A DNA stretch of 64,000 bases from an uncultured Coriobacteriaceae bacterium (GTDB lineage: Bacteria; Actinomycetota; Coriobacteriia; Coriobacteriales; Coriobacteriaceae): positions 1-64,000 of the forward strand of contig CALUOP010000003.1 of the NCBI GenBank assembly GCA_944322305.1. The letters are read 5' to 3'. This document shows positions 54,435 through 63,790 of this stretch, one piece after another; positions within the stretch are counted from its first letter, which is position 1; each line of letters starts with the position of its first letter. A program made the translations under genes and the position numbers. Under the pieces are notes generated by a model. The model worked only from the letters and a program-made list of their open reading frames with translations. It made no database searches and was not told the origin of the DNA.

Positions 54435-54620
54435 GTACAGCAACCGGCGGTGATCGCATGTGGGGCTGCGCGAGAGGGACGAGCGGGGGCCTTCGGCGCA
54501 AGTCCCACCCGACCGGCAACGCTTCGCCGCGCCGCACCTGCGGGGCGAAAGAGCACAAAACGCCTCCCGTTGACGCATGGGATTGGGATCCGGATCAAGC
54601 ACCCAGGCCAAAAGCGCACC

Positions 54621-55072
54621 CATACGATACGCGTGGGCGAAACGCACGCTCATACGAAGAGTTTGGGCGACAAAAGCACTCATACGAAACGCTTGGGCGA
54701 GGAGAGCACTCGTACGAGCGCGATTATTGCCGCGAGGGAAACCTGGTCAAAGCTGGTCTTTCTAACGGTAACGTTTCCGCAGGTAAAAGGACACCTGTCC
54801 GCAAAGCAACAAAGCGCGGAGCGAGATGGACCGTCGTACGAACGCCCCTCTCGCCCAAACGCGTCGTATGAACGCGCATTTCGCCCACGCGCGTCGTATG
54901 AATGGTCTTCTCGCCCAAATCCTTCGTATGGATGCTCTTCTCGCCCAGGTGCGTCGTATAAGTGAGAGATTCGCCCACGCGCGTCGTATGAGTGAGAGAT
55001 TCGCCCACGCGCGTCGTATGAATGCGATCTTGGCCCACGTGCGGTGGTATGAGCCGCGTCGGCGACAACTTC
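54621..55072. repeat. Mirrored 30-bp repeat array A1
   Basis: The left arm has CATACGA-type units at 54621, 54651, 54681 and 54711. After a unique centre (about 54723-54830) the right arm has the inverse TCGTATGA-type units at 54834, 54864, 54894, 54924, 54954, 54984, 55014 and 55044. The period is exactly 30 bp. Each unit has two conserved cores, TCGTATGA and TCGCCCA, with variable bases between. Both innermost units carry CGTACG instead of CATACG. Because 30 is a multiple of three, all frames look open; I do not call a protein. The rest of the gap (54225-55189) has no gene. Confidence 0.85.
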
Positions 55073-58604: not shown

Positions 58605-60398
58605 TTAGAACGCACGCGCCGCCTTCACGCACGCCTCAACCAGGCTGTCGATGGTGGCGCGCTCGGCCGAGACGCACGCAAACCCGCACGCCTCGGCGGC
58701 CGCGCGCGTGGAGGCGCCGAGGCACACCGCCAGCGGCAGCCCCGCGCCGGGCGCGCCCGGCCCCTCAAGGCCGAGCGCCCGCGCGAAGCCCTTGACCGTA
58801 GACGCGCTAGTAAACGTTACGAAGTCCACGCCGCCCTCCCGCAGGCGCCGCGTCAAGCCGCGCGGCGGCTCCTCAGGGGCAAGCACCGTCTCGTAGGCGT
58901 CTATCTGCTCGTACGGCACGCCGGCGCGCGTGAGCTCCCGCGGGAGGTCGTCGGCGCCGGACGCCGAGCGGAACAGCAGCACGGGCTTCTCGTCTGCCGG
59001 GGCTTGCCCGCGCTCGGCGCAGATACGCTCAGCCAGACCCCGGCCAAGGTGCGCGCCGTCGTAAACCTCCGGCACGTAATCTGCGTGGACACCGCGGGAG
59101 CGCAGGGCCTCGGCCGTGGCCGACCCGATGGCCGCAACGCGCACCGCGGCCAGCGCGCGCACGTCGAGCCCCGCCGCCTCGATGGCGCAAAACAGGCACC
59201 GCACGCCGTACGTGCTGGTCAGCACCACCCAGCCGAAGCGCGGCAGGCGCTGCGCCGCGCACGCGAGAACCTCGTCTGCGGCCTGACGCGTCTCTATGCA
59301 GGGCAGGTATGCCACGCGCGCGCCGAGTGCGGCGAGCTTGTCCACCAGCCCTTGGGCCCGGTCGCGCGGGCGCGTCACCAGCGCAACCCTGCCGCGCAGA
59401 GGCAGGCGGTCGTACCAGCCAAGGTCGGGCGAGAAGCGCGCAACCTCGCCCACCACCAGCACCGCCGGGCTTTTCACACCGGCCTCGCGCGCGGCGTTCG
59501 CCATGCGCCCGAGCGGCGCGTAAACGCTGCGCTGCTCGGGCGTGGTGCCGCGCTCAACCACCGCGACCGGTGTTTCGGGACCCATCCCCGCCTGAAGCAG
59601 CCCCGCGCAGATCTCCCCCATGGTGGCTACCGCCATGAGAAACACGCAGGTACCGCCCGCACGCACTAGCGCGTCAAAGTCTATGCCCAGCGCGCCGTTC
59701 GCCTGGCGGTGGCCCGTCACCACATGCACCGACGCCGACGCGCGCCGGTCGGTAACCGGGACGCCCGCATACGCCGGAGCGGCAAACGCGCTGGTCACCC
59801 CCGGCACCACCTCAAACGGCACGCCGTTTTCAACCAGGTACGAGGCCTCCTCGCCCCCGCGGCCGAACAGGTACGGGTCGCCGCCCTTGAGCCGGACCAC
59901 CAGCCCGCCCGCCCCGACGGCGCGCGCCTCCTCAACCAGGATCTCGTTGATGCGATGCTGCGGAACCGGATGGCTCCCCTGCTCCTTGCCCACGTTCACC
60001 AGCTTGGCGTGCGCGGCCAGGGCAAGCAGCTCCGACGCCACGAGCCGGTCGTGCACCACCACGTCTGCCCGGACGAGAAGATCGCGCCCGCGCACTGTGA
60101 TGAGGCCGGGGTCGCCGGGGCCGGCACCCACCAGGGCAACCAAGGCGCACGGGGGCGCGGCAGGTGCTGACGCGGCAGGTACCGGTGCAGCGGAGGCTGG
60201 CACGGTGGGGGTCGGTGCGGCAAGGGCTGATGCGGCGGGGGCTGGATGCTCTTGCTGTGCGCGGGTTTCGTTTTGAGTGGTGGAGACGGACAGCGCTTCC
60301 GGCTGGGTCAGGCTGCTGCCGGCGCCCTCCGCGCGGCCCGCGCCAACCGAACCGCAAAAGCCCTGCGCGTGCGTGCCCGCCTTGCCGAACTGACCCAT
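58605..60398 (-). CDS. Fusion of uroporphyrinogen-III methyltransferase (CobA) and uroporphyrinogen-III synthase (HemD)
   Basis: The 597-aa protein makes uroporphyrinogen III (HemD) and methylates it to precorrin-2 (CobA). After an Ala/Pro-rich stretch (about 1-84), the SUMT domain (about 86-325) shows VGAGPGDPGLITVRG, VVRLKGGDPYLFGRGGEE, PGVTSAFAAPAYAGVPVTDR and ERGTTPEQR. The HemD domain (about 345-597) shows VALVTRPRDRAQGL and VLTSTYGVRCLF. The ATG at 60398 is a choice, because the low-complexity start gives little guidance. It belongs with hemC and the CbiK-SirC fusion upstream, across array A2. Confidence 0.93.
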   Translation of the reverse strand: MGQFGKAGTHAQGFCGSVGAGRAEGAGSSLTQPEALSVSTTQNETRAQQEHPAPAASALAAPTPTVPASAAPVPAASAPAAPPCALVALVGAGPGDPGLITVRGRDLLVRADVVVHDRLVASELLALAAHAKLVNVGKEQGSHPVPQHRINEILVEEARAVGAGGLVVRLKGGDPYLFGRGGEEASYLVENGVPFEVVPGVTSAFAAPAYAGVPVTDRRASASVHVVTGHRQANGALGIDFDALVRAGGTCVFLMAVATMGEICAGLLQAGMGPETPVAVVERGTTPEQRSVYAPLGRMANAAREAGVKSPAVLVVGEVARFSPDLGWYDRLPLRGRVALVTRPRDRAQGLVDKLAALGARVAYLPCIETRQAADEVLACAAQRLPRFGWVVLTSTYGVRCLFCAIEAAGLDVRALAAVRVAAIGSATAEALRSRGVHADYVPEVYDGAHLGRGLAERICAERGQAPADEKPVLLFRSASGADDLPRELTRAGVPYEQIDAYETVLAPEEPPRGLTRRLREGGVDFVTFTSASTVKGFARALGLEGPGAPGAGLPLAVCLGASTRAAAEACGFACVSAERATIDSLVEACVKAARAF

Positions 60399-60685
60399 GC
60401 TTTCCGCCGCCTTTCCGTCGCCTGCCTCGAACGCTTACTTTTATGCGCCCCGAACCGTTGCCGTCGGCAACGGCTGTTGCTGACCAGTATTTCACCACAG
60501 CAAGCCCCCGGCATGCGCACATGATGAAAAAAAGCGCTGCACGGACGCCGCGCGCAAACAAAGGCGCCGCGCGGACGTTGCATACGCAAGCAAGGGCGCC
60601 GCGCGCAGCGCGCGGGCCGACGGCTCACGGCGGCAAGCGCACGCAGAAAGGCGGGCCCGCCGGCATGGCGGGCGAAAAGCGCCCC

Positions 60686-61129
60686 GATACGAAACTCCAG
60701 GGCGAAAATCGAAACGATACGACGCGTTTGGGCGAAACCGCGCATGATACGAGCCGGCTGGGCGAGAACCGCGCTCGTACGAGCGTAGTTCTCGCGCACT
60801 CGCCTCTGCTGTCGCGGCCATACCCCGTGTACCAGGGCGTTTGCCGAAGCGAGAAAACAACAATACCCCAAGTGAGCTGCGCGCGCCCTCGTATGAATGC
60901 ACTCTTCGCCCAAAGGCGTCGTATGAACGTGTTTTTCGCCCAAAAAGCTCGGATGAGTGAGTTTTTCGCCACGCGGCTTCGTATGGGTGCGCTTTTCGCC
61001 CAGGAAGCTCGTATGGATGTGCTTTTCGCCCAAGAGGCTCGTGTGAGTGAAACTTTCGGCCCAGGAAGCTCACATACGTGAAATCTTCGTCCGAGAGGTT
61101 CGTATGAGCGAGCCCTGCGCCCAGAAAGG
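60686..61129. repeat. Mirrored 30-bp repeat array A2
   Basis: The left arm has GATACGA/CGTACGA units at 60686, 60716, 60746 and 60776. The centre spans about 60786-60888. The right arm has TCGTATGA-type units at 60889, 60919, 60949, 60979, 61009, 61039, 61070 and 61100. The period is 30 bp (one 31-bp step). The conserved cores TCGTATGA and TCGCCCA are those of array A1, and the innermost left unit CGTACGAGCG is identical to that of A1. It lies between hemC and cobA-hemD. The rest of the gap (60399-61370) shows no gene. Confidence 0.85.
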
Positions 61130-61370
61130 CCTGCAGGGCCACGCTGCGCCTGAGGAAACCCGTGCCCAGAAAGGCCACACGAAGGAACAGCGCGCGCTGC
61201 GAGCCGACCCCGCGTGAAACGACCCCTCGTCCGCGCAGCGCGCACCCGACGGTCAAACCCGACCAACGCCGAGGGCCGAGTGCCGCGCGCCGTTGCCACC
61301 CCACGCAACGCCGCCGCCGGCAGCCGCCGTCCCGTCCTTGCCCCAGCGCCGGCGCGCTGCGCCCCGTTCC

Positions 61371-62300
61371 CTACAGCAGCGAGCGGGCGAGGGCCGCCGC
61401 CTCTTCCTCGCAGGCATCGCGCGCAAGCACCGCCTCATCGCGCAGGCAGATGCGGCCGTCGGGCGTGGCGTACAGGCCGCGCAGCCACAGCGACCCCTCG
61501 CCGCGCGGCACGGCGTAGGCTGCGCACGGCATGGCGCAGTCCGCCCCAAGCGCCCGCGTGAACGCGCGCTCGGCCCGGCCGCAGGCGCTCGCGTCCTCGT
61601 CGCTGTACCCGTCCATCCACGACGCGCGGTCGTCCGCGCGCACCGTCACCGCCATGATGCCCTGCCCTGCCGAGGGCAGCATCTCCTCGGGCGCCAGCGC
61701 GCGGTCGATGCGCGCAGCAAGCCCCAGGCGCTTGAGCCCGGCAGCCGCCAGCACCAGCGCGCCGTACTGCCCGTTGTCAAGCTTGGCCAGGCGCGTGTTC
61801 ACGTTGCCGCGCACCGGCTCAACCGGCACGCCCGGCAGCAGCGCCTGCAGCTGCAGGCGCCGGCGCGCGCTTGAGCACCCCACCGGCAGCCGCCGCGCCT
61901 GGAGCCAAGCCGCAAGCGCCCGCACGTCACGCGGATCGGGGGCGCCGGGCAGGGGCGTGCCGGCAGCCGTTCTCGGCAGCGCCAACACGTCGCGTGGGTC
62001 CTCGCGCGGGGAGAAGCCCGCCACGCGGATACGCGGATCAAGCTCGGCGGGAAGGTCCTTCAGGCTGTGCACCGCCGCATCGATCTCGCCGGTTACCAGC
62101 GCGCGGTCGAGCTCGCGCACGAACAGGCCCTTGCCGCCGATCTTGTCCAGCGGCTTGTCTTGGATGCGGTCGCCGGTGGTGGTAAGGCCCACGAGCTCGT
62201 AGGCAAAGCCCGGGCAGCGCGCGCGGACGCCCTCGCCCACCAGCCGGGCCTGCTCCATAGCCAAAAGCGATTTCCGCGTGCCGATGCGCACCACGCTCAT
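61371..62300 (-). CDS. hemC: Porphobilinogen deaminase
   Basis: HemC joins four porphobilinogens into hydroxymethylbilane. The 309-aa protein has IGTRKSLLAMEQARLV, the catalytic aspartate in HSLKDLP (Asp82), GNVNTRLAKLD, and the dipyrromethane-cofactor cysteine (Cys255 in LGADCAMPC). Its ATG overlaps the stop of the CbiK-SirC gene (ATGA), so they are translationally coupled. Confidence 0.95.
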   Translation of the reverse strand: MSVVRIGTRKSLLAMEQARLVGEGVRARCPGFAYELVGLTTTGDRIQDKPLDKIGGKGLFVRELDRALVTGEIDAAVHSLKDLPAELDPRIRVAGFSPREDPRDVLALPRTAAGTPLPGAPDPRDVRALAAWLQARRLPVGCSSARRRLQLQALLPGVPVEPVRGNVNTRLAKLDNGQYGALVLAAAGLKRLGLAARIDRALAPEEMLPSAGQGIMAVTVRADDRASWMDGYSDEDASACGRAERAFTRALGADCAMPCAAYAVPRGEGSLWLRGLYATPDGRICLRDEAVLARDACEEEAAALARSLL

Positions 62301-63790
62301 GCGCTCTCCTCCCCTGCCAAAACCCTGCGCACGGCCGACGCCGCGCGAGCTACGCCGACGTGGTCGCCGTCGGTAGATACGATACCGCACACCAGCGCGG
62401 GCCCCTCGGCCAGCGCCGGGAAAAAGAACGTGCACTCATCGGCCGCGTCGGCCACCGAAACGGGGATGCCCGCCGCCCGACAGCGCGCGCCCACCTGCCG
62501 GTTGACCGCGCGGTCGCCGGTTGCCGCCACCACCAGCGCGCAGCCCTCCTCGTCGCCGGGCTGGTAGGCGCGGGGAAGAAGATCAACCGCTACGGCGCCC
62601 GCGGGGCCCTGCGGCCCCCAGCCCTCACCGGCGCCCTCGGCGCCCAGGCGCGGGTCCGCCAACGTAACGCGCGCGCCGAAGCGGGCGAGCGCCTGGGCAC
62701 GCCGCGTTCCCACAGTCCCCGCACCCACCACGAGGCAGCGCGCGCCGGCGAGCGACACGAACAGCGGAAAGCGCGACGGCCGGGGCGCGGCGCCGGGAAC
62801 GCCAAGGGCACCAGCAGCAGAGAGCGAAGAAGCAGCGGGCGGCTGTTCGGCGCGCAGCGCGGCGCCGACCTCAGCGAGCGCTGCGCATCCCGAAGCAACT
62901 GCCGCGAGAGAGGCGTTGCCGCTGCGCTCCGCAGCGGCAGTCGGCGCGACCGCGAGCCCAGCCGACGCGCCCCCACCTCCGCGCGAGCCGTCGGCGTCGC
63001 AACGCACAGGCCCCGGGCCGCACGCAACCGGCTCGGCCGCAAGCGCATGGCGCGCCACCAGCTCGCGCACAGCCGGCATGTCCGCCAGACCCTCGGGATG
63101 CACCTCAACCTCGTAACCCGCTGCGGCAAGGCGCGCCCTCCAGCTTTCCGGGCCGCTGCCGGCGATGTCGCGCGCGGCATGCACGCCGGCAGCGAGCATC
63201 AACGGCACCAGCAAGGCCCGACGCGCTCCGAGGCCCCTGAGCTCGCGCAGCACGTCCTCAAAGCACGGGCGCAGCCGCAGCGTTCCCACCAGCAGGTCGG
63301 CGCGGCCCGTCATACGCAGAAACTGCGCCAGCGCCGCATAGGGAAGCTGCGCCGGCCCTTCCGCCCCGTGTCCCACAAACACCACCGCCTGCCCGGGCAC
63401 CGGCGGGTGCCGGCGCGCCAGCGCCTCGGCCAGGTAACTTGCGTCAGCCACCGCGCCGATAAGCGGCGCACCCAGCCGCACGGCCGCAAAACGCTCTGCG
63501 GCATCTGCCGCCGCAGCCTCCACCTGCCGGTAGGCGTGCCCCGGCACCAGCTGCGTAGCGGCTACCACGACCTCGCTGGCGCCCTTCTCGCGCAACCGGC
63601 CAAACGCCGCAGAAAGCTCTGACGCCGCCCCCGCGCGGGCCACCGCGCAGGGCACCGCACCGCACGGCGCGCCCCAACGCCGGCACACCTCGCGATGCAC
63701 CGCCTCGGCCAGGGCCGCCACGCTCGGCGCAAGGCTGCCACGCGTGCTGCCGTAGCAGGCAACGAGCAGGCCCGTCTTCCCCGCGGCCAC
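62297..63790 (-). CDS. Fusion of CbiK-type chelatase and precorrin-2 dehydrogenase (SirC/CysG-N)
   Basis: The 497-aa protein joins two consecutive steps after precorrin-2. Residues 1-255 match anaerobic cobaltochelatase CbiK: LLVACYGSTRGS, FVGHGAEGPAQLPYAAL, LLVPLMLAAGVHAARDIAG and SWRARLAAAGYEVEVHPEGL. An Ala-rich linker follows. Residues about 345-497 match the NAD+-dependent precorrin-2 dehydrogenase: CLVVGAGTVGTRRAQAL, VVAATGDRAVNRQV, SVADAADECTFFFPA. The metal could be Co2+ (cobalamin) or Fe2+ (siroheme). The start is GTG at 63790, three bases after the upstream stop. Confidence 0.92.
   Translation of the reverse strand: MAAGKTGLLVACYGSTRGSLAPSVAALAEAVHREVCRRWGAPCGAVPCAVARAGAASELSAAFGRLREKGASEVVVAATQLVPGHAYRQVEAAAADAAERFAAVRLGAPLIGAVADASYLAEALARRHPPVPGQAVVFVGHGAEGPAQLPYAALAQFLRMTGRADLLVGTLRLRPCFEDVLRELRGLGARRALLVPLMLAAGVHAARDIAGSGPESWRARLAAAGYEVEVHPEGLADMPAVRELVARHALAAEPVACGPGPVRCDADGSRGGGGASAGLAVAPTAAAERSGNASLAAVASGCAALAEVGAALRAEQPPAASSLSAAGALGVPGAAPRPSRFPLFVSLAGARCLVVGAGTVGTRRAQALARFGARVTLADPRLGAEGAGEGWGPQGPAGAVAVDLLPRAYQPGDEEGCALVVAATGDRAVNRQVGARCRAAGIPVSVADAADECTFFFPALAEGPALVCGIVSTDGDHVGVARAASAVRRVLAGEESA

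Follow-up and report, generated by a model that had tools for sequence, protein, structure and literature searches.

Array A2, in the intergenic region between hemC and cobA-hemD, belongs, on the reading that we hold with moderate confidence, to a family of intergenic elements dispersed over the genome, each of which would serve as a site of protein assembly with a role in chromosome structure. Each array of this family has two outward-facing arms of 30-bp units, inverted relative to each other, that flank a centre. The repeat unit is TCGTAYGA-N7-TTYTCGCCCA-N6 (30 bp); it presents a 24-bp bipartite site, and of the cores in an array only the innermost, of 8 bp, is palindromic, so that it is not a short palindromic REP unit.

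Array A2 and its setting

The window, by which we mean the whole 64-kb stretch of DNA that was analysed, contains 13 matches to the two-unit pattern, against 0 in 100 dinucleotide shuffles; this test, a PWM scan and direct reading show that the inverted arms of A2, with their 30-bp period, are real and far from chance. The left arm (60663-60782, minus strand) has the four outward units reported in the initial annotation, with cores at 60685, 60715, 60745 and 60775. Its innermost core is the palindrome TCGTACGA (60775-60782), shared with an inward-facing unit on the plus strand (60775-60798; PWM score of 30.5 in the inward reading), and this inward unit gives the element a polarity. The centre (60783-60888) measures 106 bp between the innermost cores and 114 bp core-to-core, which places it in the 113/114 helical class; a motif search found within it a candidate copy of motif B, CAAACGCCCTGGTA (60830-60843, minus strand), a weaker example than those in other arrays. 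The right arm (60889-61129, plus strand; PWM scan and direct reading) had been credited with eight outward units. That count is fair but loose: six units are clear, the seventh (61069-61099) is degenerate and the eighth (61100) is shifted by 1 bp.

A second array in the window, A1, was read in the same way. Its left arm (54598-54717, minus strand) has four units with cores at 54620, 54650, 54680 and 54710, its centre (54718-54833) spans 124 bp core-to-core, with a copy of motif B, CGTTTCCGCAGGTA (54772-54785; motif search), 62 bp from the left core, and its right arm (54834-55043, plus strand) has seven clear units followed by a degenerate eighth. As had been stated, A1 and A2 have in common the two cores and CGTACGAGCG, and their spacers and centres are essentially unrelated; the centres show a weak similarity, in opposite orientation, that barely exceeds that of shuffles. 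The view of A1 and A2 as a pair did not survive, as the genome has at least 19 such arrays.

The placement of A2 between hemC and cobA-hemD, in a tetrapyrrole operon, was correct. Downstream lies the cobA-hemD fusion (58605-60398, minus strand; Pfam TP_methylase and HEM4) and upstream lies hemC (61371-62300, minus strand; Pfam Porphobil_deam). This neighbourhood is incidental, since other arrays adjoin unrelated genes in every gene orientation. The arrays are intergenic and have functionally unrelated neighbours (purF/purM, ftsY/ffh, hypF/hypC and hemC/cobA-hemD, with others beside pyrG and upp), in tandem, divergent and convergent settings; pyrG, hypF and purF are names that we presume from sequence. 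As a separate observation on the operon (58605-63790 in the window), hemC was found in the source genome, in no other examined genome of its genus and in only one (G007) of five other family genomes searched; with hemC so scattered across relatives, the tetrapyrrole operon is patchy.

Distribution and architecture of the family

In the source genome (G000), 260 unit-like matches were found compared with 24 for a reversed control, and these include the at least 19 arrays noted above. At least 16 complete arrays are present in G003 (MAG uncultured Coriobacteriaceae BRZ_NT__bin55), a sister species of the same genus. The census is a minimum for both genomes, and 35 arrays were analysed. Of 399 genomes of the order that were searched, these two were positive; none of the other 397, among them the other two species of the genus (G001 and G002), gave an array. 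In a further scan, of 84,980 species genomes for three cores spaced 30 bp apart, we inspected 15 of the loci matched outside G003, and these proved to be repeats of unrelated sequence that in most cases appear to be coding. Plasmids and phages gave no match, and the viral-contig matches that were inspected were likewise repeats of unrelated sequence, most apparently coding. The family is restricted to two species; for a core function of the chromosome such a distribution would be odd, and it counts against a structural role. Within G003, one contig (C3, 228 kb) carries 8 of the 16 arrays and dnaA is on a different contig; the contig with dnaA is array-rich in G000 only, and we do not claim clustering near dnaA.

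The initial annotation saw four left and eight right units as a conserved plan. Exactly this composition occurs in only 3 of the 35 arrays, and unit counts vary freely among them (2-9 in one arm and 2-13 in the other), in keeping with the random unit numbers that had been set against such a plan. Arrays in G003 are shorter, mostly with 2-5 units per arm. Units are best conserved at the innermost positions and decay outwards (Spearman -0.48). Most arrays have, as the innermost core of one arm, the palindrome found in A2 or a sequence close to it, from which a further unit faces inwards; this one-sided feature makes the element directional. The opposite arm, which lacks the palindrome, tends to be longer (Wilcoxon p = 0.004). 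No outer terminus is conserved past the last unit in any of the 70 arms, and the sequence beyond has nothing in common except a short spacer in a few G003 arrays.

One unannotated gene is enclosed by a pair of arrays in each of the two species (L064:9664-12446 and L069:4978-7287). This gene (L064 10763-11878, L069 5610-6950) was considered as a source of a partner protein and dropped, as Pfam, NCBIfam and PADLOC assign it to no family and it has relatives in array-free genomes; these relatives are widespread in the order, and hence the gene is not array-specific.

Spacing of the centres and divergence between species

Core-to-core distances over the centre fall at 70, 112-114, 121-125, 133-136, 143-144 and 166-167 bp. 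For the 35 centres the best period of these spacings is 10.50 bp (R = 0.795), and G000 alone and G003 alone likewise give a best period of 10.5 bp. When homologous centres are collapsed to 22 values, R is 0.814 at 10.50 bp, a value reached in 0 of 5000 randomisations. As a control, the distances that separate these cores from the neighbouring genes were analysed likewise, and they have no phase (R of 0.26 and 0.11). At the loci shared between G000 and G003, the spacings are 114/144, 114/125, 114/113, 122/124 and 167/166 bp, and these differences indicate that changes come in whole helical turns. The helical-phase dependence of site spacing that characterises a nucleoprotein assembly site is therefore present, at 10.50 bp, in both species and with homologues collapsed.

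The centres themselves are of several kinds. Ten are homologous and form one group (class A, spacing of 122-125 bp), three form a second (143 bp), there are two further pairs, and eighteen of the 35 have no detectable relation to any other. Since some centres are related copies, dispersal must have happened. One or the other of two motifs occurs in many centres, at distances that either are fixed or differ by whole helical turns. Most copies of motif A (approximately AACATACCCCTATGCGTT) keep a distance of 43 bp to the palindromic core, and a similar site follows about 32 bp beyond the motif. Motif B (approximately GAAAACGCCAGGTA) recurs in other centres; in the six clearest arrays its distance is 51, 62 or 72 bp on the side of the palindromic core, and 47-49 or 57-58 bp on the side of the opposite arm.

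The suggestion that selection acts on architecture, and that the arrays are not recent duplications, is supported by the period of the centres and by the contrast between cores and spacers. In orthologous arrays the cores are about 87% identical whereas the spacers are 41% identical, compared with 40% in unrelated arrays; cores are kept and spacers are at background. Gene conversion would have made the spacers uniform too.

Individual arrays are not permanent. The purF-purM array is common to G000 and G003 and absent from G001, and two loci with a full array in G000 have just one unit in G003, so that arrays have been gained and lost, which also speaks against a structural role. The purF-purM intergenic sequences of the three genomes are too diverged for the insertion junctions, and with them any target site duplication, to be placed. 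Isolated single units were seen in G003 at L084:4987, L086:5026 and L072:5037, two of them at full-array loci of G000; they are either relics or minimal sites. At hypF-hypC the centre can be aligned between G000 and G003 and has the opposite orientation relative to the genes. A different inverted element is found in the purF-purM intergenic region of G005 (L217:516-1253), which belongs to a different genus of the family. It has three pairs of arms of about 50 bp with inner motifs about 149 bp apart, there are further pairs of such arms elsewhere in that genome, and it is possibly a single-unit analogue of the arrays.

Candidate roles of the arrays

A function at the level of DNA is indicated by the absence of complementarity between spacers, described below, and by the divergence of spacers while cores are kept. 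The sequences point to a multi-protein complex in which rotational alignment would matter, and the fact that the gap at the centre changes only in whole turns of the helix suggests that proteins fold the element into a defined DNA structure. In such a scheme, a putative sequence-specific protein would occupy every 24-bp bipartite site and so cover the two arms in opposite directions; the central motif would be recognised by a second putative protein, and bending or looping of the centre would join the arms into a defined complex. The binding proteins and the looping are presumed from the DNA. We infer a chromosome-structural role (in topology, insulation or nucleoid organisation) in preference to operator-like control of one neighbour gene. 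A more far-reaching version, which we offer tentatively and regard as possible but doubtful, is that the arrays constitute a chromosomal scaffold system, not described before, in which about twenty polar three-part putative nucleoprotein sites per genome (arm, centre, arm), served by an unknown protein that would read the repeats and a partner that would bind the centre, would fold the chromosome at set positions between genes.

The closest known elements are of two kinds. BIME-1/RIB elements of Escherichia coli are REP doublets with an IHF site between them, for which a role in chromosome organisation has been suggested (PMC2817692). Like the arrays, they are dispersed intergenic DNA with opposed repeats around a centre, which in BIME-1/RIB is bound by another protein, but REPs are single imperfect palindromes whereas the arrays have 2-13 bipartite 30-bp units per arm. 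To our knowledge, no quantisation of the BIME-1/RIB centre in helical turns has been reported. Correia repeat enclosed elements of Neisseria are MITEs, some with an IHF site, and are able to invert (PMC10969869). They too are intergenic elements with inverted arms; they have fixed terminal inverted repeats and no tandem arms, however, while no conserved terminus was found in the arrays. The arrays belong to neither group.

Plasmid centromeres such as parC of R1 consist of two clusters of repeats around a short centre, as do the arrays, but the parC clusters are direct repeats, single per replicon and located beside par genes. We know of no counterpart to phased arms of variable length.

Among the alternatives to a structural assembly site, the one that survives best is a non-autonomous mobile element, similar to a MITE, whose arms would be arrays of transposase-binding sites like the ends of Tn7 or Mu and whose copies would have spread by transposition in trans; we consider it unlikely. 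Its attraction is that the copies are dispersed and intergenic with inverted arms of direct repeats, that ten class-A centres are related, that the family is confined to one lineage and that the array is missing at purF-purM of G001. Tn7-like ends are arrays of TnsB sites, which are direct repeats of a bipartite site, with the two ends mutually inverted. The likeness extends to bipartite direct repeats in opposed orientation, but the arrays lack a defined terminus or cargo and have a variable unit number and a phased short centre. Moreover, no conserved terminal inverted repeat was detected among the 70 arms and the unit number is freely variable. Saturated spacers beside conserved cores in orthologous arrays are unexpected of decaying copies, as is turn-wise spacing of dead ones. 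The dispersal would fit a mobile origin, although the conservation that we observed does not require one.

Two further explanations are distinctly improbable, and to a similar degree. The first is an attP-like site for recombination or inversion, with arm-type sites and a core, at which a recombinase flips or exchanges the centre. Lambda-type attP has arm sites and a core in helical register, and the arrays share this arrangement; the hypF-hypC centre, inverted relative to the genes between species, also fits. However, there are about twenty copies of the arrays and no cognate integrase was found: in G000 two tyrosine recombinase matches are full-length and a third is weak and partial, and the array-free G001 and G002 have similar numbers. 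A single inversion can also come from homologous recombination between inverted arms. The second is a classical multi-site operator for the adjacent genes, here hemC and cobA-hemD. Intergenic placement and the dyad-like repeated motifs in the centre would suit an operator, but the neighbouring genes share no common pathway and occur in all orientations, the hyp array is flipped between species, and array polarity has no convincing link with gene strand (16 to 10). Polarity has no link with GC skew either (13 to 13).

An RNA hairpin acting in the transcript, through stability, RNase III or attenuation, appears very improbable. Inverted arms could pair and several arrays are within probable operons, but the complementarity of left and right spacers is 0.417 in the same array and 0.410 between unrelated arrays, so the spacers of the two arms show no complementarity, and this test already largely refutes a hairpin. 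Rfam searches gave no match, and a 10.5-bp period in an unpaired centre is a property of DNA. A coding repeat would be suggested by the unit length of 30 bp, equal to 10 codons, and by the long open frames that run through many arrays. We virtually dismiss it, since no reading frame could be kept through the unit steps of 31, 32, 61 and 62 that occur, the arms are inverted and the variable positions do not track codon wobble. The frames that traverse A2 (60164-61308 in the window) and many other arrays arise because the unit is 10 codons long; they are probably spurious genes, and automatic annotation may report them as repeat proteins.

In these arrays evolution has provided about 35 natural repeats of the classical helical-phasing experiment, such that sequence by itself is enough to infer looping or stacking of the DNA. 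A dedicated DNA-binding protein is to be expected in this bacterial lineage, which has been little studied, and the arrays would offer a direct pull-down target.
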